In this document: piece after piece, positions 23,431-57,475 of the stretch
How positions within the stretch are numbered: the stretch's first letter is position 1
Layout of the letters: every line of letters begins with the position of its first letter
NCBI RefSeq assembly: GCF_900102315.1
Contig: NZ_FNBL01000013.1
Coordinates: 1-64,000, forward strand
Source of the DNA: Celeribacter baekdonensis
GTDB lineage: Bacteria > Pseudomonadota > Alphaproteobacteria > Rhodobacterales > Rhodobacteraceae
Length of the DNA: 64,000 nt
Reading direction: 5' to 3'
The notes under the pieces: model-generated
Database searches by the model: none
Told to the model about the DNA's origin: nothing
Seen by the model: the letters and a program-made list of their open reading frames with translations, nothing else
Made by a program: the position numbers and the translations under genes

Positions 23431-23435
23431 AAAGA

Positions 23436-23548
23436 TGTGGAACGTCACACGGAGTTGACCCAATCTGGTGAGAAAACCGAGTCAAATCAGTGAGCGTCCC
23501 CAAGCAATCATGACCCAAACTTCAGGCATTTCTGACCCAAATCTAAAT
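23436..23548 (+). repeat. Left transposon end, copy A
   Basis: A 113-bp segment starting TGTGGAACGTCACACGG and containing TGACCCAA(A) at about 23456, 23511 and 23533 plus a related AGTCAAATC at about 23480. The repeated motif is suggestive of TnsB-binding sites. It is about 83 percent identical (19 differences in 113 positions, aligned by eye without gaps) to 25380-25492 in the same orientation. It matches the right end near 57440-57466 in inverted orientation. Confidence 0.72.
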
Positions 23549-23880
23549 GGCGATATCTCGTCAGGATTGTACGACAGTCGCGTCCGATTGTTGCACGCAC
23601 CGCTCAACTCCCAGAACCTAAGGACGAAAAAGTTGATTGACTGTCTTCGCGCTCCAAAGAGAAGCAAGCAAGGATAGATTTATCTCTCCAGCCGAGCGCT
23701 CTGCACTTTAGGGCGGACCACAACCGATCCGCCACGCATTGAGCCCTCGTCAATCCTTCCATTGACGCAAATCTCTCACAGTTTGAACCAATTGATCCGT
23801 TTGATAAAAATGATTGACCTCCGGGAGTGGCATTCCTTACCAAGAGATCAACTTACTGTGTTGTTAATAGAGCATGAGCA

Positions 23881-24375
23881 TTGGTGCAGGCATTGTCGGA
23901 CGACCGTCTTTTGATTTCGAGGGTCGTAAAGCGCGACCAGGATGCGGCGCGGGCGTTTGCGAAGGCGGCTCATCAGGAAAGCATCTTCGGTCAAATTCCC
24001 TTCTCCGCTGAAAAGTTCGACCTTTTTTTCCAGAAAACCATTGATGACCCTGATCGCAACCTGGGTGTGAAGGCCATGCGCGATGGGGAAATTCTGGGAC
24101 TCGCACATTGCTACATGGGCGGCTACTTCATCGGCGAAGGCGCACGTGTGGCGAGTGTCAATATGATCAATGTCGCAAAGCCCGTGCGCGGGACCTTTCT
24201 TGGTGGCAAGGTGGCTCTGAAACTTGTTCGCGCGGTGCTGGATTGGGCAAAACCACAGGACGCGCATCTGGTGTTGTTCTACGTCAGTTCCGGGGAACAT
24301 ATCGCAAAGACAGATCGGTTCTTTCGGAAGCTTGGAGCTGTCGGATTGGGAGGGAATTATGGGGTTCAACTTTGA
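23881..24375 (+). CDS. GNAT-like N-acetyltransferase
   Basis: A 164-residue protein with a GNAT-like pattern: a central stretch ILGLAHCYMGGYFIGEGARV, a VINV-type beta-4 region (ASVNMINVAKPVRGTFLGGK) that may be the CoA-binding segment, and a C-terminal strand HLVLFYVSSGEHIAKTDRFF-type region. The frame begins at TTG, with GTG as the next codon; no ATG is near the N-terminus, so the start is uncertain. It lies between the two left-end repeats, followed by a small membrane protein, and is probably older cargo. The substrate is unknown. Confidence 0.55.
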   Translation: MVQALSDDRLLISRVVKRDQDAARAFAKAAHQESIFGQIPFSAEKFDLFFQKTIDDPDRNLGVKAMRDGEILGLAHCYMGGYFIGEGARVASVNMINVAKPVRGTFLGGKVALKLVRAVLDWAKPQDAHLVLFYVSSGEHIAKTDRFFRKLGAVGLGGNYGVQL

Positions 24376-24390
24376 AAGAGGTTTGCTTTT

Positions 24391-24747
24391 ATGCGGAAAA
24401 TAACGATGTATTTCCGGCAATTGGTTAAATGGTATATTCGGCAATATGACAGGCTGCCACTCATAGCTTCTCCAGTCGGCTTATTCTTAACCCTCTACGT
24501 TCAGGCTATGGCATTTCTGCTCTTAGATGAGGTGAGCCGGTACTTGGGGTGGGACATAAGCTTTGTGCTCATCCTCTCATTCCCTGTTTGGGGATTTTCG
24601 GCAGCAGCTTTTCTTATAACTTTTTTCCTAGCGAATGAGTGGTTGCTTACGAGTTTGCGCTTGGGGCGAATTACAGGATGCGAACATCGACCAGCGCGTG
24701 CGTTCATAATTAAATTTTTCAAATTGGACTTAGCTACCGATGACTAA
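24391..24747 (+). CDS. Small membrane protein of unknown function
   Basis: 118 residues with two clear hydrophobic segments (about 27-47, ASPVGLFLTLYVQAMAFLLL; about 58-82, FVLILSFPVWGFSAAAFLIT) and basic flanks, so it is probably an integral inner-membrane protein. It starts 15 bp after the acetyltransferase-like gene and overlaps the next frame by 8 bp, suggesting an operon of three. The codon usage is more AT-rich than in the backbone, consistent with transfer. No family was recognised. Confidence 0.6.
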   Translation: MRKITMYFRQLVKWYIRQYDRLPLIASPVGLFLTLYVQAMAFLLLDEVSRYLGWDISFVLILSFPVWGFSAAAFLITFFLANEWLLTSLRLGRITGCEHRPARAFIIKFFKLDLATDD

Positions 24748-25690
24748 TTCTCTAACTAATGAATTCAATTCCGAAACCGAAAGTCATAATCAGAACCGCA
24801 GAGGCCAATCTTCAGAATTTGGCAATACAGGGGTCTCTGGAGCCTACTCGACGCTTTATTCAAATGACCAAACAGAGACAAATGTTACAGTTCATTTCCC
24901 ACGCGCCTTGGGTGATGGATTAGATTGGGCTGCGGAACAAGCTGGAAATCCAGGAGGAGGTTATAATCATCCAAATTTGACTGAAGAAGATGTAAATGCG
25001 CTCGGGGCGGGGCTGAAATTTTTAGGGATCGGGAGCAGTATAACACTCACTGAGTCCGTTGAGAACGGATGGGTCGTAAACTTTGACGGAAGTCTCGTGG
25101 CGGGATGGAGTGGGACTTTTAAGATATCCGGTTGGAACCCATTAGACTGGACCCTCTTAGAGCATAAGACCTATGCCAACATTGCTACATTTCCCACAAC
25201 CTTCTCACCTCCCGTTGCGCTGTGGGAGGCGCTGTCCGGCTCGAAGGATGCTACGGCCCGGCCCAGGGCCGGGCTGGAAAACTCCAAACTGAACCTGATG
25301 AAATTGCGATCCGCGCGGGACCGCGCCGATCACTCGATTTTTGGGACTTCGCACCTTCGGCGCTGCGCAGCCGGCACAGTGTGGAACGTCACACGGACTT
25401 GGCCCAAACGAGTCAGAAAATTGAGTCAAATCAGTGAGCGCCCTCAGACAATTCTGACCCAAACATCAAGCATTTCTGGCCCAAACCTGAATGTCGTCAA
25501 CTTGCGGTGCTACGCCATTCTAGCTTCCCCTCAGAGGTTCGGGATAAACCTTAGCACAGCGTCTGATTTCGTGGGACCACCTCTCTCCTCCGGAGGGGTC
25601 CGCGGCGGGCCGAATGATCACGCCCGGATCTCGGCCATTTTGCGCCTGCGGGTGGCGCGCAACCCAAGAAACAGCGTTCCCAGCACATAG
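24740..25690 (+). CDS. Hypothetical protein whose C-terminus runs into the internal transposon-end repeat
   Basis: The first 160 or so residues look like a real, AT-rich, hydrophilic protein (MTNSLTNEFNSETESHNQNR at the start) with no recognised domain. From about residue 213 the frame reads through the left-end-like repeat at 25380 and then overlaps the end of tctA on the other strand, so the final 100 residues are an accidental fusion or readthrough. It is best regarded as a truncated gene whose original 3' part was replaced when the repeat copy arrived. It overlaps the upstream membrane-protein gene by 8 bp. Confidence 0.4.
   Translation: MTNSLTNEFNSETESHNQNRRGQSSEFGNTGVSGAYSTLYSNDQTETNVTVHFPRALGDGLDWAAEQAGNPGGGYNHPNLTEEDVNALGAGLKFLGIGSSITLTESVENGWVVNFDGSLVAGWSGTFKISGWNPLDWTLLEHKTYANIATFPTTFSPPVALWEALSGSKDATARPRAGLENSKLNLMKLRSARDRADHSIFGTSHLRRCAAGTVWNVTRTWPKRVRKLSQISERPQTILTQTSSISGPNLNVVNLRCYAILASPQRFGINLSTASDFVGPPLSSGGVRGGPNDHARISAILRLRVARNPRNSVPST
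25380..25492 (+). repeat. Second left-end-like repeat, copy B
   Basis: This segment starts TGTGGAACGTCACACGG like copy A and has the same orientation, with TGGCCCAAA, TGACCCAAA and TGGCCCAAA at the equivalent places. The five bases before it (CACAG) do not match the AAAGA target sequence. It marks the start of the metabolic cargo and probably records a nested or recombined second element. Confidence 0.65.
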
Positions 25691-27129
25691 AGCAGGATGG
25701 CCACCAAAAAGAAGGCCGTCACCGGACGTTCGAAGAACGGCAGGATCGCCCCCCGGCTCGACATCAGGGCGCTGCGCAGGTTCTCCTCGATCACAGGGCC
25801 CAGGATAAAGCCAAGGATCAGCGGCGGCAGCGGATAATCGAAGCGGTTCATCACATGCCCCAGCGCCCCGAAGGCGACCAGCGTCCAGACATCGAACATG
25901 CGGTTGTTGGTGGCATAGGCCCCCACCACGCACATCAGAAGCACGACGGCCAGCAGGTAGTTCTTCGGCACCGACAGAATCCGGATGAAAAGTCGAATGC
26001 CGAAATACTCGACCACCAGCATCACCACGGCGGCGAGTGCCATGGCGGTGAAGACCGAATAGACCAGATCACCATTCATCGCGAACATCAGCGGACCGGG
26101 CTGGATCCCGTGGATCAGGAAGCCGCCAAGCAACAGTGCGGTGACAGAATCACCGGGAATGCCAAGAGCGATCAGCGGTACCATGGCCGAGCCGATCCCC
26201 GCGTTGTTCGCGGATTCCGTGGCAACGATCCCCTGAGGATTGCCCTTGCCAAAGGTATCGGGCTGTTTGCTGGCGCTGCGGGCGGCGAGATAGGCAAGCA
26301 TGTTCGATGCCGCCGCGCCGATGCCGGGCAGCAGGCCAACCCCGATGCCAATGGCAGAAGAGCGCAGGAAGTTCGGGAGATATTCCCGGAATTGCCTGGC
26401 ATCGACGCCAAAGAACCCGCCCAATTTCACCTTGGGCATCGCGTGGCCCTCATCGGGGCTGGTGGGGTTCTCGGCGTATTTCAGCACTTCGGCCACGGCA
26501 AAAAGACCAAGCAGCACCGGCAGCAGCGACAGTCCGGAATCGAGCGCGTGGAACCCGCCCGTAAAGCGGTTATAGGCATCGACCGGGGCCATGCCGATCA
26601 TCGCGACGAGAAGGCCGACACAGGCGCTGGCCAGCCCCTTGAGCAGATTGCCGCTGGCCAGCCCCGCAACCAACGTTAGCGCAAACAGGGAGATGGCAAA
26701 ATATTCAAAACTGCCGAAGGTCACGGCAATGCGCGCCAGCGGCGGGGCGAGGAAAAACAGGACTACGCAGCCCACAAGGGTGCCCAGAAAACTGTAGAGG
26801 ATGGCAATGCCAAGCGCGCGCCCCGCCTCACCCCTCTGCGCCATGGGAAAACCATCGAAGGTGGTGGCGATGGAGGACGGCGTGCCGGGAATGTTGATCA
26901 GGATGGCCGCGATCAGACCGCCGGAAATGCCGCCGATATAAAGCCCGACAAGCAGCGACAGCGCTGTCACCGGATCCATGCCGAAAGTCATCGGCAGGCA
27001 GAGCGCCACGGCCATGGTTGCCGTCAGCCCGGGGATCGAGCCGAACACGATGCCCACCGTGACGCCCAGAAAGATCGCCAGTAGGGGCGCGAAAGCGAAG
27101 ACATCCAGGATGCCTGCAAGATTTTGCAT
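25618..27129 (-). CDS. tctA: Tripartite tricarboxylate transporter large permease TctA
   Basis: A 503-residue inner-membrane protein with about 10-12 hydrophobic segments. TctA motifs visible are GVTVGIVFGSIPGLTATMAV at the N-terminus, GLYIGGISGGLIAAILINIPGTPSS (residues about 62-86), and GVGLLPGIGAAASNMLAYLA in the middle. It works with TctB and the periplasmic receptor TctC to import a carboxylate using an ion gradient. It follows tctB by 12 bp and ends near the internal left-end repeat. Confidence 0.95.
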   Translation of the reverse strand: MQNLAGILDVFAFAPLLAIFLGVTVGIVFGSIPGLTATMAVALCLPMTFGMDPVTALSLLVGLYIGGISGGLIAAILINIPGTPSSIATTFDGFPMAQRGEAGRALGIAILYSFLGTLVGCVVLFFLAPPLARIAVTFGSFEYFAISLFALTLVAGLASGNLLKGLASACVGLLVAMIGMAPVDAYNRFTGGFHALDSGLSLLPVLLGLFAVAEVLKYAENPTSPDEGHAMPKVKLGGFFGVDARQFREYLPNFLRSSAIGIGVGLLPGIGAAASNMLAYLAARSASKQPDTFGKGNPQGIVATESANNAGIGSAMVPLIALGIPGDSVTALLLGGFLIHGIQPGPLMFAMNGDLVYSVFTAMALAAVVMLVVEYFGIRLFIRILSVPKNYLLAVVLLMCVVGAYATNNRMFDVWTLVAFGALGHVMNRFDYPLPPLILGFILGPVIEENLRSALMSSRGAILPFFERPVTAFFLVAILLYVLGTLFLGLRATRRRKMAEIRA

Positions 27130-27141
27130 GATTGTCCCCTT

Positions 27142-27594
27142 TCAGAAAGGTCCGCTGGGCAGGATGAGGCCAAAGCCCTTGGTGAATACCGCCCAGATCG
27201 CGGCGGCCATAAGGACGGAGATCGCTGCCTTGAACACCGGCTGGTGGTGACCGCGCGGGGTCAGCACCACCATCTGGGCAAAGAGCAGCACCGCCGCCAC
27301 CGGCAGAAAGCCCACCACCGGCATCGCAAGCGTTGCCAGCACCAGGCCCCCCAGCACGCCCAGAACGCGTAGCTGCCCCGTCGCGCGCCGCTTCTCCCCC
27401 GGAGCGCCCAAGGTCGCGCGTAGGCCGATGGCCAGCGCGCAAACGCCCAGCATCGCGGTGACGATTTCGGGCAAGAACCCGGAATCGACCCCGGTCTTGA
27501 AGCGTGAGGTAATCCCCCGCGCCTGCATGTGGATCAGCACCGCAGCAAGCAGTAGCACTGCCGCGGAGATCAAATCTTGCCTGCGAGAGGTCAT
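27142..27594 (-). CDS. tctB: Tripartite tricarboxylate transporter small permease TctB
   Basis: A 150-residue membrane protein with four hydrophobic segments, the usual size of TctB. It starts MTSRRQDLISAAVLLLAAVL and has the family-typical SGFLPEIVTAMLGVCALAIG stretch near residues 39-58. It lies between tctC and tctA on the same strand with short gaps of 22 and 12 bp, and is identified largely by this context together with its topology. Confidence 0.9.
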   Translation of the reverse strand: MTSRRQDLISAAVLLLAAVLIHMQARGITSRFKTGVDSGFLPEIVTAMLGVCALAIGLRATLGAPGEKRRATGQLRVLGVLGGLVLATLAMPVVGFLPVAAVLLFAQMVVLTPRGHHQPVFKAAISVLMAAAIWAVFTKGFGLILPSGPF

Positions 27595-27616
27595 GATACG
27601 CTCTCCCCGATACGGA

Positions 27617-28564
27617 TCAGAATTTGACCTGTTTCATGCGCTCCAGCACCACATCCAGATGCTCGCGGCTTTCCTCCCGCCCAAGATAATAGGGCTTCTG
27701 CGAATAGGCCTTCTGGATTTCGTCCGCGTAGCCGCCACTGTTGGCGATGACGTTCTGAATCGCGCTGGAAAAGATGTCGATCCGGTCCTGCGGCGTGCCC
27801 TTGGGGAACAGGTAGAAGAATTCGGCCCGGAAGGTGATGTCATAGCCAAGATCAGTCAGAGTGGGCACATCGGGTAGCGAGGTCGTGCGCTCGTTCGAGA
27901 TTGTGGCGAGCACCCGCAGATCGCCGCTGTCCACATAGGGTTTCACCTGGCCAACCGGGTTGAAGGACACATCGACATTGCCGCCCAGCACGGCGGTCAG
28001 ACGACCCGACGCGCCGCCGACATCGACGAAGTTGAACGCCGCGCCAGCATTGTTCAGCTGGGTGCCGACAAGATAGGTCATCGCGCCGGTATTGGCGGTC
28101 AGGTCGATCTCTCCGGGGTTGGCGGTGCTGGCCGCCATCAGCTCTTCCATGGTCTGATAGGGCGAATCCGCCGGAACCACGATCACGTTGCCGTCTTCCT
28201 GAGCGACGATGCCGGTCACTTCGTAATCGTCCAGCGTCAGATCGGTGATGCCGAGAGCCTGGCTGGTCAGGAAGGTGGTGTGAAAGAACAGCACGGTCTG
28301 ACCGTCGGCTTTGGCACCCATCACCTGGCGAGCGGCAACCGTACCGCCAGCGCCTGTGACATTGATCACCGGCAGCGATACGCCCAGTTCGGGCTCAAGA
28401 TACTTGGCCAGCGCACGTGCGTTGAAATCGGTGTCGCCCCCCGCCCCAAAGGGGACAATCACCTGAATCGGGCGGCTGGGCCAATCGTCAGCCATGGCCG
28501 TCTGGCCGATCGCCATTGCAGCCAGAGCACCAAATACGGATGCCAAAACAGTACGTCGTTGCAT
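27617..28564 (-). CDS. tctC: Tripartite tricarboxylate transporter receptor TctC (Bug family)
   Basis: Periplasmic solute receptor of 315 residues. The signal peptide ends near TAMADDWPSRPIQVIVPFGAGG, which leads into the Bug-family hallmark. The start is the ATG at 28564 preceded by GGGAGGAG; the open frame starts 8 codons earlier without such a site. Bug receptors bind carboxylates through backbone contacts, so the exact ligand cannot be inferred. It is the first tct gene, 102 bp after the molybdoenzyme gene. Confidence 0.94.
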   Translation of the reverse strand: MQRRTVLASVFGALAAMAIGQTAMADDWPSRPIQVIVPFGAGGDTDFNARALAKYLEPELGVSLPVINVTGAGGTVAARQVMGAKADGQTVLFFHTTFLTSQALGITDLTLDDYEVTGIVAQEDGNVIVVPADSPYQTMEELMAASTANPGEIDLTANTGAMTYLVGTQLNNAGAAFNFVDVGGASGRLTAVLGGNVDVSFNPVGQVKPYVDSGDLRVLATISNERTTSLPDVPTLTDLGYDITFRAEFFYLFPKGTPQDRIDIFSSAIQNVIANSGGYADEIQKAYSQKPYYLGREESREHLDVVLERMKQVKF

Positions 28565-28655
28565 GACTTCTCCTCCCAAGAGATGCATGGAATGTAGGGG
28601 CGGCGACCCTCCTCGATCAACAACCCCTTACAAGATAGTCTTCATTAAATGTAAA

Positions 28656-28668
28656 AAGTTGTCAACTT
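28656..28668. promoter_or_regulatory. Candidate operator upstream of tctC
   Basis: The sequence AAGTTG-T-CAACTT is a 13-bp palindrome with one central base, in the gap between the molybdoenzyme stop codon and tctC. It is preceded by ATGTAAAA, and similar TTGTAAAA-type words are repeated upstream of the enolase-superfamily gene at 33757-33810. A GntR/FadR-type regulator is encoded between the two sites, so both could be its targets; this is inference. Confidence 0.3.
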
Positions 28669-31000
28669 ATGTTTGGAGATTACGGATCGATTTTGGCAAA
28701 ATCTCATGATGCGACACCGCCGGAGGGACGTCTCCGGCCCAAACCTCAACCGAAACGAGCGTCAGCTGTCCGGCACAGCCCTGTCCGATTGCTGAGGAAC
28801 CCGCATCGCTTGTGACGATATTAGGGTTGCCGTTGACGCAGGTTAGGCCCGCCCCCGGCAGATCGACGGGCGCATACCAGGCACCTGTGGGGATCTGTAC
28901 GACATGACGGCGCAACGCCGTATCCGGCTGTGCCACTGCCAAAAATCCGCCGCGTTCGTTCCACACCCGAAGGATATCGCCCGCCTTTGCGCCAAGCGCT
29001 GAAGCATCTTCGGGGTGAAGCCGCAGCACCTCTCGGCCATCAACCTTGCGCGCCATGCTGGCCTTGCCGAAATCGAGCTGGCTATGCAGCCGCCCGCGCG
29101 GCTGATTGGCGACAAGCTGAAACGGATGGGCCTTTGCCCGGTCGGAGCCCAGCCATTCGTCATGGTCGATCCAGACGGGATGCCCGGCAAATCCGGCATC
29201 AGCGATGCGTTGCGAAAAAATCTCGATCCGGCCGCTGGGCGTGTCGAGCGGCGCGCCCTCGGGATCGGCGTGGAATTGCGCGATTCGGGAGGGGGAGTCG
29301 GACACCGGAAGCGGCAGGACATCCCCGGCGAGGAAGTTGTCAAAACTGGGCGGCGTGTCGCCCCGGGTTTCCAGCGCCTCCCGGGTGCGTTCATAGAGAT
29401 CACGCTGCCAGTCGGCGCTGCTTCGGCCCTCGGTATAATGGTCGGCCACGCCAAGGCGGACAGCCAGAGCCGCGAAGATGTCATAATCGTCCCGCGCGCC
29501 GTCAAGCGGCGGCACAAGCTGCGGCATCGGCACCAGGAACGGATCGTTGCCTGCGGCACCGATATCGTCGCGTTCCAGGCTGATGGTGGCGGGAAAGATA
29601 ATATCGGCATGGCGGGTGGTGGCGGTACCGACGCTGTCATGCACGATGATCGTGTCGGGCCGGGCAAAGGCCTGCCTCAGCCGGGACAGATCCTGATGAT
29701 GGTGGAACGGGTTGCCCCCGGCCCAGTAGACCAGCCGGATATCGGCATAGCGCCGCGTTTCCAGCTTGTATTGATACGTCCCCTTGGGGTTGAGCAGCAG
29801 TTCCGAAATCCGGGCGACCGGGATGTAATCGCCCACCCGGTTGGTCCCCTGCGGCAGGGTTGGCAACGGCACCGCAAGCGGCGGCTTGCCAGTGTTGCCG
29901 ATGGAGCCCAGTGAATAGGAAAAGCCCGCACCCCGCAGCGGATACTGGCCCAGCATTGCCGCAAGAACCAGCCCCATCCAGACCGGCTGTTCGCCGTGGC
30001 GCGCCCGTTGCAGCGCGTAGGATACCGCAATATGCGTGCGCTTGCGGGTCGCCAGGCGGGCGATTTCGGCAATCTGTTCCGCCGGGACATCACAGATCGC
30101 GGCGGCCCAGGCGGGTGTCTTGGGCTGGCCGTCGCTTGCTCCGGTCAGATAATCGGCGAAGGTCGCGTATCCGGTGGTGTACCGGTCAAGATAGGCGCGA
30201 TCAGCCAACCCTTCGTCATGCAACACATAGGCCATGCCCAGCATCAGTGCGACATCGGTGCCAGGGCGAGGGGCCAGGCGCGTGACTTGCGGCAGGGCCT
30301 CGAAATCGTCGAAGATCGGGCTGATCGAAACGAATTCGCAGCCCCGATCTGCCGCCTGACGCAGACTGGGCCCGGCGATATGCTGAGAATTGCCCCCGGG
30401 GCTGGCGGCGAGATTGCGCAGCGGCAGGCCGCCAAAGGCGACCAACAGCTCAGTCTCTTCCGCGATTTCCTGCCAGAACGGGGTTTGACGCGACATCTTC
30501 AGCGTATTGCCCCAGACCAGATCGAGGATCACCGCCCCGGCCGCTGAGGAATAGGTATCGACATGGGCGACGTAGCCGCCGAAGGCGCTGTTCAGGAACC
30601 GGTGCACCTGACTTTGCGCGTGATGAAACCGCCCAGCGGAGGACCAGCCATAAGAGCCGCCGAACACATGCGCGCCGGGCAAGGGGCCACTTTTCGGCAG
30701 GTCGGGACCGGCACCAAGCCGCCGCAGTTCCCGCGCGGCCAGATCCAGCGCCTCGTCCCAGCCCATTTCCACATAATCGTCGCGCCCGCGGCGGTCGTCA
30801 GGACCGGGGCCGTTTTCCAGCCAGCCGCGCCGCACCAGCGGGCGATCCAGCCGGGCAGGGTTGCGCGGCGCCGCAGTCAGGTTTTCCAAAATCTCAGACG
30901 GCTCCGGGTCCAGTTCGAACGGCGTGACCTTCAGCGTGCCGTCATAGCACGCACGGAAGGTGCCCCAATGGGCGGAATGCGGGCGGAGGTCCTTGGTCAT
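28667..31000 (-). CDS. Molybdopterin oxidoreductase, biotin/DMSO-type sulfoxide reductase (BisC-like)
   Basis: A 777-residue bis-MGD molybdoenzyme of the DMSO/TMAO/biotin sulfoxide reductase subgroup. There is no N-terminal iron-sulfur cysteine motif and no twin-arginine signal, so like BisC it is probably cytoplasmic and uses a soluble electron donor. The serine ligand region reads VFGGSYGWSSAGRFHHAQSQ (about 112-131). Cofactor-binding motifs follow (HVDTYSSAAGAVI, VYWAGGNPFHHHQDLSRLR), and the C-terminal molybdopterin dinucleotide domain begins FQLVANQPRGRLHSQLD. It overlaps the upstream propionyl-CoA synthetase gene by 4 bp. The likely reaction is reduction of an S- or N-oxide; the substrate is unknown. 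Confidence 0.88.
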   Translation of the reverse strand: MTKDLRPHSAHWGTFRACYDGTLKVTPFELDPEPSEILENLTAAPRNPARLDRPLVRRGWLENGPGPDDRRGRDDYVEMGWDEALDLAARELRRLGAGPDLPKSGPLPGAHVFGGSYGWSSAGRFHHAQSQVHRFLNSAFGGYVAHVDTYSSAAGAVILDLVWGNTLKMSRQTPFWQEIAEETELLVAFGGLPLRNLAASPGGNSQHIAGPSLRQAADRGCEFVSISPIFDDFEALPQVTRLAPRPGTDVALMLGMAYVLHDEGLADRAYLDRYTTGYATFADYLTGASDGQPKTPAWAAAICDVPAEQIAEIARLATRKRTHIAVSYALQRARHGEQPVWMGLVLAAMLGQYPLRGAGFSYSLGSIGNTGKPPLAVPLPTLPQGTNRVGDYIPVARISELLLNPKGTYQYKLETRRYADIRLVYWAGGNPFHHHQDLSRLRQAFARPDTIIVHDSVGTATTRHADIIFPATISLERDDIGAAGNDPFLVPMPQLVPPLDGARDDYDIFAALAVRLGVADHYTEGRSSADWQRDLYERTREALETRGDTPPSFDNFLAGDVLPLPVSDSPSRIAQFHADPEGAPLDTPSGRIEIFSQRIADAGFAGHPVWIDHDEWLGSDRAKAHPFQLVANQPRGRLHSQLDFGKASMARKVDGREVLRLHPEDASALGAKAGDILRVWNERGGFLAVAQPDTALRRHVVQIPTGAWYAPVDLPGAGLTCVNGNPNIVTSDAGSSAIGQGCAGQLTLVSVEVWAGDVPPAVSHHEILPKSIRNLQT

Positions 31001-32904
31001 GCGATTTCTCCAGTATTCGCGTAACCGATGCTTTGCAGCGCTTGTGTCAGTTCGTCCAGAATGGTCGGGTCATCAATCGTTGCGGGCATGCGGAAGGCTT
31101 CGCCATCCGCCAGTTTCGCCATCGTCGCGCGCAGGATCTTGCCCGAGCGGGTCTTGGGGAGGCGGTCGACAACCACCCCGTGGCGAAACGCGGCGACCGG
31201 ACCGATTTCATCGCGGACGCGTTTTACACATTCGGCCAGCACCTCATCATGCGGGCGGGTGACGCGGGCATTCAGGCAGATGAAGGCCAGCGGCAATTGT
31301 CCTTTCAGCGAATCTGCCGCCCCGACCACCGCGCATTCGCCGACATCCGGGTGGGCCGCGATGACCTCTTCGATGGCCCCGGTAGAAAGGCGATGCCCGG
31401 CCACGTTGATCACGTCGTCGGTGCGGGCCATGACGTAGATATAGCCGTCAGCGTCGATCATGCCCGCATCGCCGGTCTCGTAGTAGCCGGGGAAATGCGC
31501 CATATAGGAGTTTTCGAACCGCTCATGAGCGTTCCAGACGGTGGCAAAGCAACTCGGCGGCAGCGGCAGCTTGATCGCAATGGCACCAAGCGTGCCCGGC
31601 GGCACCGGATGGCCGGCCTCGTCGAGAACCTGCACATCATAACCCGGCATCGGCACGGAGGGCGAGCCAGCCTTGACCGGCAGCAGCTCGATCCCGGCGG
31701 GGTTGGCGGCGATACTCCAGCTCGTTTCGGTCTGCCACCAGTGGTCGATCACCGGCTTTCCGATCTTTTCTTCGGCCCAGTGGACGGTGTCGGGGTCCGC
31801 GCGTTCTCCGGCGAGGAAGACATATTTCAGCGCGCTCAGGTCATAATCTTTCAGGAACTCGCCCTGCGGATCCTCGCGCTTCACGGCGCGAAATGCGGTG
31901 GGCGCGGTGAAAAAGCTCTTCACCTTATGCTCAGAGATCACCCGCCAGAAGGTACCCGCATCCGGCGTGCCGACCGGCTTGCCCTCGAACAGGATGGTGG
32001 TGCTGCCGTTGATCAACGGACCATAGCAGATATAGCTGTGCCCCACGACCCAGCCGACATCCGAGGCCGCCCAGAACACATCGCCCGGCATCACGTCGTA
32101 GATATTGCGCATCGACCAGTGCAGCGCCACGAGCTGTCCGGCGGTCGGGCGCACCACGCCCTTGGGGTTCCCGGTGGTGCCAGACGTATGCAGGATATAG
32201 GCCGGGTGATTGCCCGGCACCGGCACGCAGCCCACGGGTTCCGCGGCGGCGACGGCCTCGCTCCAGTCTTGATCGCGACCGTCGATCAGGTTCGCCACTT
32301 CCTGCGGACGCTGAAAGATAAGGCAGACGCCCGGCTTGTGGGAGGCCTGCTCGATGGCGGAATCCAGCAGCGGTTTGTAATGCACGATACGGCCCGGCTC
32401 GATGCCGCAGGACGCAGCAAGGATCGCCTTGGGCTGCACGTCGTCGATGCGTGTGGCCAACTCGTGGGCGGCAAACCCGCCGAATACCACCGAATGAATC
32501 GCCCCGATCCGCGTGCAGGCAAGCATCGCGCAGAGCGCCTCGGGAATCATCGGCATATAGAGGATCACACGGTCGCCCATTCCCACCCCCTGCGCGGTAA
32601 GCACCCCGGCCAGGCGCGCAACCCGGTCCTGCAGCTCTCCATAGGTGATGCGGGTCACGCTGTCGGTCACCGGGCTGTCATGGATGATCGCCAGCCGGTC
32701 GCCATGCCCGGCCGCAACGTGACGGTCGACTGCATTCCAGCAGGTGTTGACCTGCGCATCGGCGAACCACTCATGCACGCCATCATCATTCACCGTCAGG
32801 CCGACTTCCGGCGCCCGCTCCCAGTCGATGGCTTCGGCGGCCTGCATCCAGAACCCCTCGGGGTCGGCCTGCCAGCGGTCATAAGTTTCACGATACGTTG
32901 TCAT
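30997..32904 (-). CDS. prpE: Propionyl-CoA synthetase (PrpE-type acyl-CoA ligase)
   Basis: Converts propionate or another short acid to its CoA ester with ATP. The 635-residue ANL protein has the acetyl-CoA-synthetase N-terminal domain (WNAVDRHV), the P-loop ILHTSGTTGNPKGVVRPTAG, the family block DHWWQTETSWSI, DVINVAGHRLSTG and the C-terminal acetylation site PKTRSGKILRATMA. The PrpE affiliation rests on the VVRPTAG and DHWWQTETSW sequences. It is the first gene of a minus-strand unit with the molybdoenzyme and tctCBA. Acting on an imported carboxylate is a reasonable inference. Confidence 0.9.
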   Translation of the reverse strand: MTTYRETYDRWQADPEGFWMQAAEAIDWERAPEVGLTVNDDGVHEWFADAQVNTCWNAVDRHVAAGHGDRLAIIHDSPVTDSVTRITYGELQDRVARLAGVLTAQGVGMGDRVILYMPMIPEALCAMLACTRIGAIHSVVFGGFAAHELATRIDDVQPKAILAASCGIEPGRIVHYKPLLDSAIEQASHKPGVCLIFQRPQEVANLIDGRDQDWSEAVAAAEPVGCVPVPGNHPAYILHTSGTTGNPKGVVRPTAGQLVALHWSMRNIYDVMPGDVFWAASDVGWVVGHSYICYGPLINGSTTILFEGKPVGTPDAGTFWRVISEHKVKSFFTAPTAFRAVKREDPQGEFLKDYDLSALKYVFLAGERADPDTVHWAEEKIGKPVIDHWWQTETSWSIAANPAGIELLPVKAGSPSVPMPGYDVQVLDEAGHPVPPGTLGAIAIKLPLPPSCFATVWNAHERFENSYMAHFPGYYETGDAGMIDADGYIYVMARTDDVINVAGHRLSTGAIEEVIAAHPDVGECAVVGAADSLKGQLPLAFICLNARVTRPHDEVLAECVKRVRDEIGPVAAFRHGVVVDRLPKTRSGKILRATMAKLADGEAFRMPATIDDPTILDELTQALQSIGYANTGEIA

Positions 32905-32981
32905 GGTGCTCCTCCGCTCGTCTTCAGGCTCTGCCCTTCGGCAGAGTTTCTGTCATTTTTTTCGGGTCGGCTTCGGCGGGC

Positions 32982-33701: not shown

Positions 33702-33756
33702 CACACCCTCCGTCGCGTTCACCCGATGCTAGCGAAGTGATCGCCTGCCGACAGCC

Positions 33757-33810: not shown

Positions 33811-33878
33811 TGCCAGCCATATGTGTAAGGTGCGTTCTGCACGTTCCGGACGTTCCGGGTGCAAAAGGAGGAGGTCCC

Positions 33879-36004: not shown

Positions 36005-36018
36005 ACGGAGGAAGACCG

Positions 36019-49233: not shown

Positions 49234-51427
49234 TGTCGTTCTCCTCATTGGCAGCCTTCGGCACACCGGTCTCATCGAGTTCGTCACTGAAGAACCATTC
49301 CTCAACATCCGGCGTTTCTGTGATGACGGTGGCCGGCAGTTCTGCTGGGAGCGGGCCAGGTTCGTACGGGATCTCATCGGAAAGAAGCCCTGTGTGGTGA
49401 TCCGTCGGAACCGCATCACCGCTGGGTACAGCATCGGGATTTGATCCGAATGACAGCCCCCAGAAAGTCTCCTTCTGGGCGCGCCGGATTTGATCCACCG
49501 TGAGATTGATGGGGCCAAGCTGCCGCATCGCGCGCTGCTCAGCGTCGATCTCTTTGATCCTCGCAATCGCGCGATCAACGACACTTTGAGTGAGGCTTGC
49601 GGCAGCCCGATTGTTTCGCCGGAGTTCAAAAATCGCCTTCTCCCAGGACGCAAAAGATACACCCTCGAGATTGTCGATTGTTGCACTCAACGTTGACCAA
49701 CCGCTCTCCTTTCCGCGCTCCAACCAGACTGAAATACGCCCCATATCTTCGGGATCGATGCTGACTTCCACCGATTGCGGGCCATACTTCTGGAAGTGCT
49801 TTGCCAGCCGTTTCGAGTGGTAATTGACGCCGTTCATCAACACGCCGTGAGTGCCGGTTTTGCGGGTGAACTTAAGCCCCAAGATGTGTCGTAACTTGTG
49901 TGAGGACATCGGCGGCGACCATCCGAATTCAGCCACGAGCTTGTCCCACATGTTAGCCGGTGTCGCGTACTCCAACCCGCTATGTTTGCGGTTGTGGTAG
50001 ACGTCCACTGTGAAGCGCACGAGCAACTCCACGATGCTTTCGGCCGTATGAACGGCATATTTCTGCGAAGGGTAATCTCCCCGCTCTTGCGGATTAGAGA
50101 AGGTGCGACCGGTCAGGTAGGGCATCAACAAGGTTGCGATTGACCGGAACACGCGCTCGATGTGCGCACGGAGCCTTGGCACGCCAGCGGGCAAGACGGA
50201 GTAGTCAATCGCGAGATCAGATAGTGCCGCTTTGAAGTCCGTGCTGACGAAGGCGGGGCCGTTATCGACTGCGACATGATAGACATGTCCGTGCTGTCTC
50301 CAAGGCGTCTCGCAGCCCAATCCAGAAGCTAAGGCTGTCTTGTTTCGCATTGCCATCCACAGCGTTGCCTTGGCGTCTTCGGTGTTTGGCTTAGTCGACA
50401 ACTTGAGACCCAAAAGACATCGGCTAGCTGTATCCATCGCGACGCACACCCAATAGCGTCCGAGTTCCAAGTCACGGACGCTTGAAAGTGAGATGTCGAA
50501 ACCGGCGCGTTTGAGGATCGCCATAAGGTCGATCTCCCATTCGTCCATCTCGATCCGAAACAGAGGTGCGTTTAGTTTGAGGCCGCCGACATGGGCTCCA
50601 AGCTTGTTCTTCGCGTAGGCGACGCCTTTGCGAGCAGCTAAGGCCTCGAACTGGTCCATATCCCCAATACGCCGTTCAATCGTACTGAGCGAAACTTCCG
50701 GCAAAAGGTCTTCTCCGGAGATCCCTCGGGCGATGTTCTTTCGCCGCACTTCCGCATTCACAGCGTCATGGAACTGCTGCGGGTAAATTTCGTTCGGATG
50801 CTTAAAGCACAAGGACTCAACTTGGATGATCGCCTCTACTTCGGGATGCACGCGCTTTGCGTTTTGCCCATTGAAGATGCTCTTCTTTACGAAGACCATC
50901 GGGTCGCGGCTCTCTTCCCACGCGCGCAACATGCTCATGGCTTTTGTCCGACTTGGGACGTAACTCAACAGGCTCGGTTCAGCGGCTTTGCCTTCCAGGC
51001 TTTTTAGGACACCTTCCTCGAGTTTGCGCTTCACGCGTGCGTGGAGTGTAGGCAAGAACTCATGCCATCGCTTGGAAGACCGGTTGAACCAGCCCTCCTT
51101 CGCGCCTTCGATCATTACCTCGCACCAAGCTTCACCCTGAAAGGCATGAAGTTGCGTTTTGAGCGAGAGGCTGGAGAGCAACGCGCGCCCCGCCCGTGCA
51201 CGCCGTGCGGCTTGCCGGTCAGAAAAGTAGCCGTACTCGACACTGAAGTGTCCGTTATCGAGCAGCTTTGCGAGTTCTTCGTGGGAGAAACTCAACGGCA
51301 CGGCTCCGGCCGCTTTGGCGAGAAGTGTCACGGTTTCTTCCGTGATGTTTTGAACGAAGTGGAGTTCTCCCTTGGCCATGACCGCATCTACGGGACCGAG
51401 ATTGAGTTGAAAGTGCATATCTTTCAT
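49226..51427 (-). CDS. tnsB: TnsB/TniA DDE transposase
   Basis: A 733-residue retroviral-integrase-fold transposase that binds the element ends and performs strand transfer. The catalytic triad is visible as Asp295 (or Asp300) in RIEMDEWEIDL, Asp388 in VAVDNGPAF and Glu424 in RAHIERVF. The Mu-type C-terminal domain follows (TGTHGVLMNGVNYHSKRLAK). The start overlaps the tnsA stop by 4 bp and AAGGAG precedes it. Its binding sites are presumably the TGACCCAA repeats at both ends. Confidence 0.93.
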   Translation of the reverse strand: MKDMHFQLNLGPVDAVMAKGELHFVQNITEETVTLLAKAAGAVPLSFSHEELAKLLDNGHFSVEYGYFSDRQAARRARAGRALLSSLSLKTQLHAFQGEAWCEVMIEGAKEGWFNRSSKRWHEFLPTLHARVKRKLEEGVLKSLEGKAAEPSLLSYVPSRTKAMSMLRAWEESRDPMVFVKKSIFNGQNAKRVHPEVEAIIQVESLCFKHPNEIYPQQFHDAVNAEVRRKNIARGISGEDLLPEVSLSTIERRIGDMDQFEALAARKGVAYAKNKLGAHVGGLKLNAPLFRIEMDEWEIDLMAILKRAGFDISLSSVRDLELGRYWVCVAMDTASRCLLGLKLSTKPNTEDAKATLWMAMRNKTALASGLGCETPWRQHGHVYHVAVDNGPAFVSTDFKAALSDLAIDYSVLPAGVPRLRAHIERVFRSIATLLMPYLTGRTFSNPQERGDYPSQKYAVHTAESIVELLVRFTVDVYHNRKHSGLEYATPANMWDKLVAEFGWSPPMSSHKLRHILGLKFTRKTGTHGVLMNGVNYHSKRLAKHFQKYGPQSVEVSIDPEDMGRISVWLERGKESGWSTLSATIDNLEGVSFASWEKAIFELRRNNRAAASLTQSVVDRAIARIKEIDAEQRAMRQLGPINLTVDQIRRAQKETFWGLSFGSNPDAVPSGDAVPTDHHTGLLSDEIPYEPGPLPAELPATVITETPDVEEWFFSDELDETGVPKAANEENDNE

Positions 51428-52152
51428 TGATCGACTCCTTTCGGCGCAACGATTGTATTGAGGGAAATGAGTTCACATTTTTCGGCCCGCAGGAGATCCG
51501 CGTAGATGGCTCTGAAAGCAGCGCGGAAACCGCGCGCATCGAGGTCAAGCGGTTTGATCATCTCTGCGATCGACATCTCGCCCGACAGGTCAGCGATGCG
51601 CTCCGCAACCAGAGCATCAGCTTCAGGATCCTCGCAGCGGCGGAAAAAGTTCAGAAGCTGTGCATTCAGGACTTCTTTGGGATGCCGGTTGCGCTCTGTG
51701 ACGAGGCACACCCCATCCGCAAAGCCTTTGGGCAGATCCCGCCGGATTGCGTGGAGCGTTTCGCGAAAGTTCAACTTCTCGGCGCGATCAGCCGGCTTGA
51801 CCGCCAAGCCAATTTTTTGCCCGTTTCGGTACTCAGCCAAAAAGTCGAAGCGATGCGTGCGTTGCCGACCGTCTAGATCGATGTAGCTCACGGGCGTCGG
51901 CTGATCGTGAAGGTTCCACAATTGCGGATCGGCCAATGCCAAAAGGCAGGTTTCACGTTCGCCTTGGCTGGCACTGATGATTTGCCGCCAATCGTTTTCT
52001 GCTGGCAGCTTCGCAAGCGTAAAGCCCCGTACCGTCTGCTTAGAGCGGGCGGGGAACATCAAGCCCGCAGTGGTCTTTGCAGGTGGACGATAGAAATCGT
52101 CATCATCATTAGACATATCTTTTGCCGTGGCCGCGGGCACAGCCCGCGCCAT
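51424..52152 (-). CDS. tnsA: TnsA-type transposon endonuclease
   Basis: A 242-residue protein with the PD-(D/E)xK nuclease core of TnsA: glutamate in GERETCLLALADPQLW (65 or 67), aspartate in THRFDFLAEYRNGQKIGLAV (Asp103) and the lysine that follows (Lys119), then the C-terminal helical domain (FFRRCEDPEADALVAERIAD). TnsA cuts the 5' ends so that transposition is cut-and-paste rather than replicative. The start at 52152 has AAGGAGG just upstream. It is the first gene of the operon and the one nearest the right end, as in Tn7. Confidence 0.85.
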   Translation of the reverse strand: MARAVPAATAKDMSNDDDDFYRPPAKTTAGLMFPARSKQTVRGFTLAKLPAENDWRQIISASQGERETCLLALADPQLWNLHDQPTPVSYIDLDGRQRTHRFDFLAEYRNGQKIGLAVKPADRAEKLNFRETLHAIRRDLPKGFADGVCLVTERNRHPKEVLNAQLLNFFRRCEDPEADALVAERIADLSGEMSIAEMIKPLDLDARGFRAAFRAIYADLLRAEKCELISLNTIVAPKGVDQ

Positions 52153-52267
52153 TCGGCCTCCTTGTTGATTGAATGCAGGAGACCCGTCCGTCAAAACGCT
52201 ACGCTCTTGACGGGTCTCTCAAGTTCGGTCATGAAGGAGGTGCAACGGGATCTATTCTATTGCACCA

Positions 52268-52298: not shown

Positions 52299-52316
52299 TT
52301 CCTATTCTTTAGTTCA

Positions 52317-52553: not shown

Positions 52554-52840
52554 GATCGTCTCCGCCAAACTCAATCGACACGCTTTGGTGCGGGCCGTGA
52601 TGAGTTTTGCATGTCAACTGATTGCCCCTTCAAGGCCAAAAAACGACGCCTCTGACGGCCTGCGCCTTAGCCTAGGCGATGCCAGCCACAAAATTTTGTA
52701 GATCAGACGCAAATTCAGCAATTGGGTCAATGGACCCTTCAAAACGACTACCCCCAATCGGGAGCACTCAAAAAAATTGCCGGCGACGAGCCGGTCACCT
52801 AGAAGTAGTGGTGCCAACTCTAGCTGAGCGGAACTCTTGG

Positions 52841-53464
52841 ATGAAAAACGCGAAAAAATTCGAATCGAAAGCGCACGAAAAGGATGCCAAGCGACTCGCG
52901 AATATCCGTGAAACTCTTGGGTGGACCCAAGAGTATCTAGCTGTATCCACTGGCATGTCTGTTGGATCCGTTGGCAACTACGAAAGAGCATTGAATGAAA
53001 TGCCGCAAAGTTACAGACGACGGATCATTGACCTTAGCGGCGCCGACCCAGCACCTCGGAACCCAAATCAGGATCCATGGTTGGTCATAAACGAAGTCAG
53101 AAATTTCCTTGGTGAAGTCGGCTTTTGTGAGAACGATCACGAAGCTCGTTCCGACACGCCGCGGCAGCCGATACCGCTCGAGCAGGATGGTAGCACCCCA
53201 AAAGGCAGATGGGCGAGGTTTAAGGCATGCGCGAAAGATTGGGCATGCGTGCGGGATGTTTCTCTGCTCACCTCCCTAACATACCTCAGCATGAAAACTT
53301 TGAGTCTGAAGATGAATTTTCAGTTCGGGGCCCCTTCAGATCAACTCGACATTGTCATGCTCATTGCCGCTGCAATTGCCGTGACCACTCCCGTTGCTTT
53401 CATTCAGGACATTCCCCGGCAGCTGGCCGCAAAGCGGGCTGACACTGCTCGCACGGCGTGCTAG
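52841..53464 (+). CDS. XRE-type HTH protein with C-terminal hydrophobic region
   Basis: About 207 residues from the ATG at 52841; the frame is open to 52679 and no clear ribosome-binding site settles the start. Residues about 15-65 are an XRE domain (LANIRETLGWTQEYLAVSTG then MSVGSVGNYERALNEMPQSY). The C-terminal part has a hydrophobic stretch (LDIVMLIAAAIAVTTPVAFI) that could be one membrane helix. It diverges from the Ner-like gene, with 287 bp between them. It may be a regulator of the transposon's genes; no function is established. Confidence 0.6.
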   Translation: MKNAKKFESKAHEKDAKRLANIRETLGWTQEYLAVSTGMSVGSVGNYERALNEMPQSYRRRIIDLSGADPAPRNPNQDPWLVINEVRNFLGEVGFCENDHEARSDTPRQPIPLEQDGSTPKGRWARFKACAKDWACVRDVSLLTSLTYLSMKTLSLKMNFQFGAPSDQLDIVMLIAAAIAVTTPVAFIQDIPRQLAAKRADTARTAC

Positions 53465-55303: not shown

Positions 55304-55309
55304 GGTGCC

Positions 55310-56047
55310 TCAACTCTCTTCGTCTTGATTGATTGAAGCGAATAGCTCCTCCAACGTCCACCATGGTCGCGCCACGTGAACCATGCGGTGGCAGTTTGCG
55401 CAGAGCAGAACTAAGTCGGCCAACTTCGTGGTTTCCCCAGCGTTGAGCTCGGACACTGGTTTGGTGTGGTGGCACTCGATGAATCCAGCGCCGCGCTCGC
55501 CGTAGACCTTCAGGAAGTCGAAACCACGGGCCTCACAGCACAAATGCCCGTGCTTCCTGAAGAAAGACGCCTTCTTACGCTTAACGATAGCCGCGTTCCG
55601 CTCGCGATAGCGGTGCAAACGTGTTAGTAACTGGCCCTCGCTGGCTTCCGTAGCATCATCATCTGGCAGAACGGGGACGCCGTTTGCCATCGCGGCGCTG
55701 GTTACATTCAAGATGTTCTCGACCATTTTTTTCAACGCTACCGGGTCTTCGGCGAATTCGTCCCAGAGGATCTGTTCCAGCTTGTTGCCCTGGGGAAGAC
55801 CCTTTGTGTCGTGCTGCGGATCACGAGAGCGGAAATTCAGCAACTTCATCGAGACACCGGAGGGGTTCCGAAAGGTATCTAATCCGGTCAATCCGAGCAC
55901 TTTGGCAACTCTGCTAATGTTGGCCGCCAGTTCCTCGACGCCTGCGCTAGTTGGCGAAAAGTAGTCGTCCCGATTGTCGATATAGTAATCCAAAGCGACG
56001 AGATGCTCGTCGCGGGTCCAATCGGGGTTGCGCTTTTTCTCGGTCAT
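55310..56047 (-). CDS. HNH endonuclease (McrA-like)
   Basis: A 245-residue protein. The C-terminal HNH motif is GAGFIECHHTKPVSELNAGE followed by LADLVLLCANCHRMVH, with the two histidines, asparagine, final histidine and the zinc cysteines CANC. The N-terminal 150 residues (DEHLVALDYYIDNRDDYFSP, NPSGVSMKLLNFRSRDPQHD) resemble the target-binding part of HNH restriction-type enzymes. It is followed at 6 bp by the 380-residue unknown gene. Likely a nuclease that restricts foreign, possibly modified, DNA. Confidence 0.82.
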   Translation of the reverse strand: MTEKKRNPDWTRDEHLVALDYYIDNRDDYFSPTSAGVEELAANISRVAKVLGLTGLDTFRNPSGVSMKLLNFRSRDPQHDTKGLPQGNKLEQILWDEFAEDPVALKKMVENILNVTSAAMANGVPVLPDDDATEASEGQLLTRLHRYRERNAAIVKRKKASFFRKHGHLCCEARGFDFLKVYGERGAGFIECHHTKPVSELNAGETTKLADLVLLCANCHRMVHVARPWWTLEELFASINQDEES

Positions 56048-56365: not shown

Positions 56366-57157
56366 TCATTGAATTTGATATATTCCACTTTCAGCGTTGG
56401 TCGCAAAAAGTGTCCAATGGGGAAAACTCTTTGCCTGTTCTTGATCATGGAATACGCCAAGCATCACCATCGACGAATCTTGAAGCATCAGGATGAAACA
56501 TCCTATCTCGCCATTAAGTTGCCATTTATAGCCATATTGCAGTTCAGAGTTTTTCGCACCCTGCCTGAGATCTCCATAGTTGCCCAAAGCCCGTAGCAAC
56601 TCATCAGGAGACTGCTCATCCAAGACATGTGCATTGGTAAACCATTGGACCATGACCCGCGAAGTCGGCGGCAAGATTTCTCCACCGGAATGAAGATAGT
56701 AGAGTGCGTATGCTTGTTTTGCTGCCCATGGGTTAAGCCAACCTGAAAAAACCCTTTGGTCGATTTCGACTCTGGCGTAAAAATCGACTTTCCCGTCAAC
56801 TCTCAAAGGCACATCAGATGATACACCTTCCGCAATAGCTGAGAAGGCGTCAGGAGTATTGTTTTGAACACCTTGCATGAGTTTTTCCATGTATTCGTCC
56901 GGAACATCCCGGTGAACAGACGCCTGGATCAATGCGACAAGTGCAGCAACTTGATCGGCGGGACCTGATCCATTGTTGCAACGCTCACAGGCGGGCATCC
57001 TATGGGTTGCCGCAGGGACCTCTTTATTTATGAAAAAAACCTTCGGTGGTGCATGTTCAATCGTGGTAGCGGCCACCGATCCGCCACAAAGACAACACCA
57101 TGGGTTCTGTTCCAAAAAGCCCTTTATTCGGTTCTGTCTGGTTCGAGCTTCGCCCAT
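56366..57157 (-). CDS. HNH-like zinc-binding protein of unknown function
   Basis: A 263-residue protein. The first 65 residues carry an HNH-like treble-clef set: CCLCGG near 17-22, TTIEHAPPKVFF near 32-43 and MPACERCNNGSG near 54-65. The remainder (RVEIDQRVFSGWLNPWAAKQ, VMVQWFTNAHVLDEQSPDEL) is unrecognised but protein-like. It is the gene closest to the right transposon end. The start ATG at 57157 follows AAGGAA. Related proteins are usually annotated only as HNH endonucleases; activity and role are unknown. Confidence 0.65.
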   Translation of the reverse strand: MGEARTRQNRIKGFLEQNPWCCLCGGSVAATTIEHAPPKVFFINKEVPAATHRMPACERCNNGSGPADQVAALVALIQASVHRDVPDEYMEKLMQGVQNNTPDAFSAIAEGVSSDVPLRVDGKVDFYARVEIDQRVFSGWLNPWAAKQAYALYYLHSGGEILPPTSRVMVQWFTNAHVLDEQSPDELLRALGNYGDLRQGAKNSELQYGYKWQLNGEIGCFILMLQDSSMVMLGVFHDQEQAKSFPHWTLFATNAESGIYQIQ

Positions 57158-57333
57158 TGGAATTTCCTTCTTAAGGTTTTGATTTTTTTAAGCGATTTTG
57201 GTCTACGAAATTACCAGTAAAGACGGGACCAAACAATATGAGGATTTTTGCGGACAGCAGTTTCGTCCGCAGTGAGTGGCAGCTTAGGGCCGCAAGCAAC
57301 CTCAGCACGCCCATCCCATATAAAAACAAAAAC

Positions 57334-57363
57334 CGCGCCAGTTCGCTTGAACGGCGCGTTTTT
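57334..57363. terminator. Bidirectional terminator inside the right transposon end
   Basis: AAAAACCGCGCC and GGCGCGTTTTT form a stem with an A-run on one side and a T-run on the other, so it can act in both directions. It lies about 110 bp beyond the 3' end of tRNA-Arg, inside the element. It could stop transcription coming out of the tRNA gene, whose own downstream sequence was displaced by the insertion. Confidence 0.7.
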
Positions 57364-57436
57364 GAGTCTTGACGCTCGGCTATCACAAGCGCCTCAAATT
57401 GAGCGTCTGACAACCCTGTTGTGGTCCAACTATGAC

Positions 57437-57466
57437 GGTTGGGTCAGGTTCGTGTGACGTTCAATA
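57437..57466 (-). repeat. Right transposon end
   Basis: On the minus strand this reads TATTGAACGTCACACGAACC followed by TGACCCAA, matching the left end (TGTGGAACGTCACACGGAGT, TGACCCAA). The outermost three bases on the plus strand are ATA where a Tn7-type end would have ACA. It is followed on the plus strand by the target duplication AAAGA (57467-57471) and four A before the tRNA. Confidence 0.72.
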
Positions 57467-57475
57467 AAAGAAAAA

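Follow-up and report, generated by a model that had tools for sequence, protein, structure and literature searches.

What brings an element of some 34 kb to rest directly beside a tRNA gene, and which of its proteins might choose the site? The question is raised by a stretch of 64,000 nucleotides from Celeribacter baekdonensis (Rhodobacteraceae; assembly GCF_900102315.1, contig NZ_FNBL01000013.1, positions 1 to 64,000), referred to below as the window, in which we find a Tn7-like transposon of 34,031 bp (23436-57466) with its right end on the side of a tRNA-Arg(ACG) gene. A preliminary description of the same DNA had proposed a left and a right end with AAAGA outside each, an insertion beside tRNA-Arg(ACG) with the right end facing the gene, and a tnsABC-tniQ-tniQ operon pointing away from that end, and all of these were recovered. 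Its notion of a single 34-kb Tn7-like element held for the ends, the duplication and the target, whereas 23436-57466 may or may not have moved as one unit, given an unpaired left end inside it, discussed below.

Borders of the element and target duplication

The element and its attachment site are made up of the following features:

23431..23435: left copy of the 5-bp target duplication AAAGA
23436..23552, plus strand: left end L1, which starts TGTGGAACGTCACACGGAGTTGACCCAA (extended TGTGGAACGTCACACGG...) and has TGACCCAA sites at +21, +76 and +98
57320..57466, minus strand: right end, TATTGAACGTCACACGAACCTGACCCAA..., with its terminus at 57466 and an approximate inner border
57467..57471: right copy of the target duplication AAAGA
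57476..57552, minus strand: tRNA-Arg(ACG), the attachment gene, intact, whose 3' end is separated from the right end by a 9-nt spacer

The extended end motif GAACGTCACACGNANNTGRCCCAA has 3 matches in the window, while 3 or more were reached in 0 of 100 shuffles (shuffle mean 0.00). The preliminary description would have been refuted by an end block spread widely over the genome without relation to tns genes; in the 4.44 Mb of the genome the end 12-mer is found exactly 4 times, three of them in the window (a 4.44-Mb genome in total) and one inside rpoD. Sequence related to the right end adjoins tRNA-Arg in G166, G167 and L125 as well (G numbers denote genomes, L numbers loci). Matching ends, a 5-bp duplication and a right end lying nearest to an intact attachment gene are properties of Tn7-like elements, and the sequence supports the conclusion that the ends given above delimit such an element, oriented with its right end towards tRNA-Arg(ACG).

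Genes of the transposition machinery

The genes of the operon are open from 52194 down to 44830:

51424..52194, minus strand: tnsA (endonuclease subunit), assigned from its position and from an orthologue in Phaeobacter that is annotated TnsA
49226..51427, minus strand: tnsB (rve and Mu-transpos_C domains)
48241..49236, minus strand: tnsC (TniB/AAA+), with a frame open to 49686 and a probable start near 49236
46464..48305, minus strand: tniQ1, 613 aa, putative TnsD-like selector for tRNA-Arg(ACG)
44830..46398, minus strand: tniQ2, 522 aa, putative second TnsD-like selector

TnsA itself reaches 25 bits against a cut-off of 110 with the NCBIfam TnsA-like profile and has no Pfam match. In TnsB the residues D295, D388 and E424 are invariant in a 5-sequence alignment, and its nearest solved relative is the TnsB of Tn6677 (E 6e-41). 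TnsC (TniB/AAA_22) and both TniQ proteins match their families above the cut-off; among solved structures there were 0 matches to the TniQ profiles. TnsA, a DDE-type TnsB with rve core and Mu-type C-terminal domain, TnsC and TniQ/TnsD, i.e. the proteins by which a Tn7-like element is recognized, are thus all present. Pfam scans of 30 of the 81 listed open reading frames (ORFs, at least 100 aa) gave no match to cas families (CRISPR arrays were not searched for), to TnsE or to tyrosine or serine integrases, the only integrase-fold match being the TnsB core.

Left flank and unoccupied sites

On the left, exactly AAAGA separates L1 (23436) from the right end (23430) of another, older element that belongs to a second group, here called C-type:

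22811..23430, minus strand: C-type Tn7-like remnant, comprising the right end (terminus 23430) and the 5' part of tniQ2, with about 400 bp deleted

The tniQ2 pieces of the remnant are 68% and 45% identical. The window element sits atop this C-type remnant. C-type elements of G152 and G156 carry tnsABC-tniQ1 (TnsB 47%, TniQ1 43% identical); some 10 kb away, adjoining the tRNA, they have a tniQ2 of full length (56%).

Five of the 20 genomes of the genus that were searched (G149, G150, G152, G156 and G157) have the left flank of the window joined directly to the same tRNA. The junctions read ...GGCATCTGACAAAAAGTAAAATGG in G150 and ...TGACAAAAAGAAAATGG in G152, to be compared with the window flanks, ...GGCATCTGACAAAAGA (in a longer stretch ...TGACAAAAGA) on one side and AAAATGG on the other. 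Since such junctions exist in genomes without the element, the 34 kb were inserted here, into a target holding one copy of the 5 bp. The preliminary description had expected an empty site of the form metQ terminator region, AAAGA, AAAA and tRNA-Arg; the joining of flank and tRNA agrees with this, but what had been taken for the metQ terminator region is the right end of the older element.

tRNA-Arg(ACG) as a landing site in other genera

From a TnsB alignment run against the collection, 78 loci were obtained, taken from the best 80 of 120 relatives, and a TniQ tree of 90 rows was built by a quick method; fragments such as L113 and L134, in which under 280 profile columns were matched, are not part of it. 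TniQ1 of the window falls into a clade of 28 rows (Shimodaira-Hasegawa-like approximate likelihood ratio test, SH-aLRT, 100), which represent 26 elements after merging of two duplicate pairs, and TniQ2 into a separate clade of 14 rows (SH-aLRT 100). In the TniQ1 clade, 22 of the 26 elements (21 relatives and the window) are located 3' of tRNA-Arg(ACG). For 19 of the 26 (18 relatives and the window), spanning 13 genera as named in the record titles, the tRNA lies on the right-end side within the fetched flank; in L131, L247 and L146 it is 21-51 kb off on the same contig or record, and in L110, L111, L126 and L128 the contig border is reached before any tRNA, no TniQ1-clade element being shown at another site. 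Fifteen of the 19 have a 9-nt spacer from the tRNA 3' end to the right end (13 counted by script, L112 and L119 by eye from the script output); in L124 and L127 it measures 10 nt, and L122 and L129 have no recognizable end. The association extends to plasmids: the elements L188 (Tritonibacter p2), L189 (Phaeobacter M627) and L247 (Phaeobacter P78) each belong to a plasmid with a tRNA-Arg(ACG) of its own.

The preliminary description had proposed a search beside tRNA-Arg genes of other Rhodobacterales. The pattern of right end, 9 nt and tRNA was found in 19 of 394 genomes of the family (reversed control, 2). ARAGORN confirmed tRNA-Arg(ACG) in 10 of these, the window included; the other nine, in which it found no tRNA, were set aside as chance matches or scars.

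Within the fetched flanks of the loci outside the TniQ1 and TniQ2 clades, only L142 adjoins tRNA-Arg(ACG). In L111 (TnsB 79%) the second TniQ differs from that of the window and comes from the L142 clade (reverse complement, 5304-7070); from such sequences the slot behind tniQ1 seems to be exchangeable. End pairs 5 bp apart were also seen a few kb from metQ, at about 5674 of L257 (G167) and about 8510 of L258 (G163), with no tRNA within the 15 kb fetched, and these may represent a second chromosomal site or a rearranged stack.

Duplications and stacked elements

When both sides of 9 elements at the site were compared, an exact 5-bp duplication was found in 8, i.e. AAAGA in the window and duplications of their own in G412, G413, G414, G415, G418, G419 and G156, and in G166 one base differs. 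G150, with AAAAG on both sides, brings the exact duplications to 9 of 10 delimited elements. Fifteen left-end junctions were examined. A recognized right end is next in seven of them, after exactly 5 bp in the window, G418, G419, G156, G422 and G433 and after 6 bp in G166; a third recurrent end type is next in four (G413, G414, G415 and G421), and no recognized end in the other four (G412, G426, G431 and G150). This count omits one more G418 junction (contig C3) and the G163 and G167 end pairs away from the tRNA, and an end search allowing 1 mismatch was too noisy to serve for more than the adjacent pairs. The order within a stack varies: in the window the window-type element is nearest to the tRNA with the C-type behind it, in G156 it is the reverse, and G414 has two tns operons in a single stack. 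Read from these junctions, the order of a stack is last in, nearest to the tRNA, with newcomers landing between the tRNA and older elements.

C-type ends at a plasmid site

C-type left ends have matches in 20 plasmid records at E 1e-8, 12 of them over most of the query; 12 of the 20 plasmids are conjugative, 6 mobilizable and 2 non-mobilizable. Three of the units on Phaeobacter conjugative or mobilizable plasmids are C-type-flanked cargo units of small or medium size, without tns genes and with CGAGC at their borders:

L297, 20001-23013
L300, 24877-36702
L298, 19191-21872

In Phaeobacter pP92_f a 3.0-kb unit has CGAGC on both sides and contains genes annotated as a stress protein and a SulP transporter. 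In pP36_d CGAGC flanks a unit of 11.8 kb (24877-36702), and another copy of the target sequence holds two stacked units with CGAGC between them. Plasmid p4 of Thioclava is a natural empty site with one CGAGC, the flank matches overlapping by exactly 5 bp. In pP75_f one end is offset by 2 bp and another end is without the site. The target flank is a repeated intergenic sequence close to antirestriction-like genes, and pP92_f has it at 5-6 places. In the plasmid stretches scanned with profiles (all of pP36_d; 40 of the 58 kb of pP92_f) neither tns nor tniQ genes were detected. Window-type left and right ends had no plasmid match at E 1e-5, and there is consequently no evidence that the window element itself uses plasmids. 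The L297 and L298 plasmids have annotated resistance genes (sul2 and floR; aph genes) outside the short C-type units.

Proposed mechanism and choice of the selector

We favour the reading, with a probability of roughly three in four, that the window element is a cut-and-paste Tn7-like transposon homed 3' of tRNA-Arg(ACG), with TniQ1 as the reader of the tRNA, a stack that grows nearest to the tRNA and TniQ2 as a second selector. The end structure, the 5-bp duplication, the near-constant 9-nt spacing and the use of the same site in many genera can be seen directly. By homology, TnsA and TnsB would act at the transposon ends and TnsC would form the bridge to a selector. TniQ1, a TnsD-like protein, would read the body of the tRNA gene and direct the right end towards it, leaving the gene intact. 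An element with sufficiently different ends could then insert between the tRNA and the resident, and because the recognized gene would survive each insertion, a last-in, nearest-to-tRNA stack would grow. TniQ2 would be a second selector that the element shares with those of C-type, whose ends also mark the fixed plasmid site.

An ordinary integrase-driven tRNA island with the tns genes as passengers has to be considered, as the 3' ends of tRNA genes are common integrase sites. However, the left border is the 5-bp AAAGA and not a tRNA 3' end, the relatives have 5-bp duplications of their own, and the ORFs scanned hold no integrase family. We rejected this explanation on these grounds and give it scarcely any credence.

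The choice between the two TniQ proteins is more delicate. In the delimited elements of G414, G415, G418 and G419, which have exact duplications at the site, profiles find tnsABC and TniQ1 only, which makes TniQ1 the likelier tRNA selector, and members of the TniQ1 clade follow the site through 13 genera. Among 22 host sequences of the tRNA gene, the acceptor stem and the 9-nt spacer are variable, but the region of D-arm, anticodon and T-arm hardly changes, a pattern suggesting that the tRNA body is probably the part recognized. Several points weigh against the role given to TniQ1. A selector unrelated to TniQ would escape the profiles used. L142 stands beside the same tRNA, with a right-end-like terminus about 10 nt away, and since its TniQ falls into another clade, which also holds the second TniQ of L111, the TniQ1 clade is not the sole one at the site. 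C-type elements with TniQ1 share their ends with the plasmid-site units, so one selector could read both sites. TniQ2-bearing elements are found at tRNA-Arg too, among them a 2.1-kb C-type element of G150 (L081:16857-18970) at tRNA-Arg(ACG), with AAAAG on both sides and tniQ2 as its only gene, and TniQ2 could for this reason be a tRNA selector as well. No tns gene was found in about 57 kb beyond this small element, which may be an in-place deletion.

If TniQ2 were the selector for tRNA-Arg(ACG) and TniQ1 served another target, it would be understandable that TniQ2 adjoins the tRNA in C-type elements and that tniQ2 is open where the available stretch holds no tns gene (11 kb in G149, 60 kb in G150, 34 kb in Phaeobacter pPGA2_239). 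The ratio of nonsynonymous to synonymous substitution rates (dN/dS) of TniQ2 is 0.13-0.27 between divergent C-type copies, tns-less ones included, as under purifying selection; the value of 0.95 for two near-identical Phaeobacter copies is uninformative and comparisons with the window TniQ2 are saturated. Set against the four TniQ1-only elements and the TniQ1 clade, we consider this exchange of roles improbable. In two Tritonibacter plasmid loci (L248, L249), tniQ2 and a conserved upstream region stand beside a different Tn7-like operon, and the fetched 30 kb contain neither a recognized right end nor tRNA-Arg.

Our hypothesis is that the plasmid site is read by TniQ2. As C-type elements carry both proteins, it is attractive, though unproved, to suppose that they divide the labour, TniQ1 serving the tRNA and TniQ2 the plasmid; the G150 element, with tniQ2 alone at the tRNA, speaks against this. 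Going further, we speculate that C-type ends home to two sites, tRNA-Arg(ACG), be it chromosomal or plasmid-borne, and the repeated intergenic sequence of MOBP plasmids, mobilizable or conjugative (CGAGC duplication), and that TniQ2 is a portable selector for the latter, captured by the window element, which could thereby either stay at home or travel, needing neither TnsE nor CRISPR. This idea is tentative, and so, to the same degree, is its corollary that TniQ2 was left alone beside the tRNA in tns-less derivatives and is borne as the sole gene by the 2.1-kb G150 element.

The second left end

A further point against the favoured reading is an unpaired left end at 25380:

25380..25496, plus strand: second left end L2, unpaired, read as a relic

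L2 is 83% identical to L1 (23436-23552) over 117 bp and is preceded by CACAG, unlike the AAAGA before L1. It has TGGCCCAA in two of its three sites, where L1 keeps TGACCCAA in all three. A 28-nt probe (up to 10 mismatches) found no right-end partner for L2 in the window; apart from the ends already known it picked up a few places of low quality. L2 interrupts an ORF (24740 on) that has no convincing relatives in the fetched loci and none in plasmids or Pfam, so that a nested insertion is no more than a possibility here.

The last arrival could also have been 25380-57466 (L2 to the right end, 32.1 kb), with 23436-25379 as the deletion-trimmed remainder of an earlier, related element. L2 is after all a near-complete left end, and as AAAGA is what any insertion here would duplicate, the duplication alone cannot separate L1 from L2. 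The site loss in L2 is not decisive either, since the left ends of five relatives were examined and those of G163 and G167 have no TGACCCAA sites. On the other hand CACAG rather than AAAGA precedes L2, no right end lies between L1 and L2, and L1 retains three TGACCCAA sites, as G166, G419 and L134 retain two or three. An arrival from L2 to the right end thus seems unlikely, though it deserves to be kept in mind, and we read L1 and the right end as the probable active pair, with L2 as a relic carried inside. Between L1 and L2, positions 23583-23998 have 88-94% matches at three places past the G150 C-type element (L081:12922-15416).

Comparison with known systems

It is instructive to compare the element with Tn7. 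Both have tnsABC, a TniQ/TnsD-type selector, matched ends with repeated sites, a 5-bp duplication, and a right end facing a target gene that is left intact. Tn7 itself (tnsABCDE) inserts at attTn7 downstream of glmS, whereas the target here is tRNA-Arg(ACG), at a 9-nt spacing, with two TnsD-like selectors and no TnsE match in the scanned ORFs. Tn7 insertions are also stacked at attTn7, where successive divergent elements occupy one attachment site; here the stacks are at a tRNA, in many genera, with end-to-end junctions spaced by 5 bp.

The closest parallels are CRISPR-associated transposons (CAST) of types I-B2 and I-D (PmcCAST, McCAST, CyCAST), in which a TnsD-type protein homes downstream of a tRNA and two TniQ-family proteins are present (PMC10293859, PMC11406308), two properties shared by our element. 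The differences are that the scanned ORFs here gave no cas match, that tnsA and tnsB are separate as opposed to a fusion (PMC11406308), that the target is tRNA-Arg(ACG) instead of tRNA-Leu or tRNA-Val, and that insertion is about 9 nt from the tRNA, compared with 30-33 nt downstream of tRNA-Leu in CyCAST (PMC10293859). The same source counts 1,048 dual tniQ-tnsD Tn7-like loci, which likewise have two tandem TniQ/TnsD genes; in our case the second selector is common to another element group, is kept at the right end of that group, and the ends of that group also mark a plasmid site. Published work already describes TnsD-type proteins that home to tRNAs, loci with dual TniQ/TnsD genes and 'safe sites' on the downstream side of tRNAs (PMC10293859, PMC11406308, PMC8649781).

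Among the matches listed from open-licence papers, none joined Tn7-like elements with tRNA-Arg in Rhodobacterales. In the literature searched we found neither this target and spacing nor the paired plasmid site; tRNA homing, dual selectors and cargo of the present kind are already known. What the locus adds is the definition of a Tn7-like group that, in Rhodobacterales, lands at a precise site by tRNA-Arg(ACG), and it suggests a route by which large metabolic and defence islands build up at one chromosomal point. The unoccupied sites, duplications and two candidate selectors are material for testing how TnsD-type proteins gain new DNA targets. If true, a CRISPR-free pairing of a chromosome and a plasmid route through two TnsD-like proteins would offer a clean comparison for pathway choice in Tn7 (TnsD/TnsE) and CAST.

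Cargo and neighbouring genes

Besides the operon the element carries a regulator and several cargo genes:

25618..36414: metabolic cargo (TctABC transporter, molybdopterin oxidoreductase, acyl/acetyl-CoA synthetase, GntR, MR_MLE enolase-family enzyme, 2-hydroxyacid dehydrogenase)
36019-36414: last ORF of the metabolic cargo, rhodanese-like by eye, outside the family scan
38687..42082, plus strand: MkoC (Mokosh) helicase-phospholipase D (PLD) protein, anti-phage cargo (1214 bits)
52679..53464, plus strand: helix-turn-helix (HTH) regulator, divergent from the tns operon
55310..56047, minus strand: HNH nuclease gene carried as cargo in the stretch from tnsA to the right end

HNH genes, in the plural, are among the element cargo. 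Tn7-like elements are known to carry both defence and central-metabolism cargo (PMC8649781). The C. baekdonensis genome itself has at least three other, distant Tn7-like operons with TniQ (L101-L104; contigs C37, C18 and C15; TnsB 25-28% identical).

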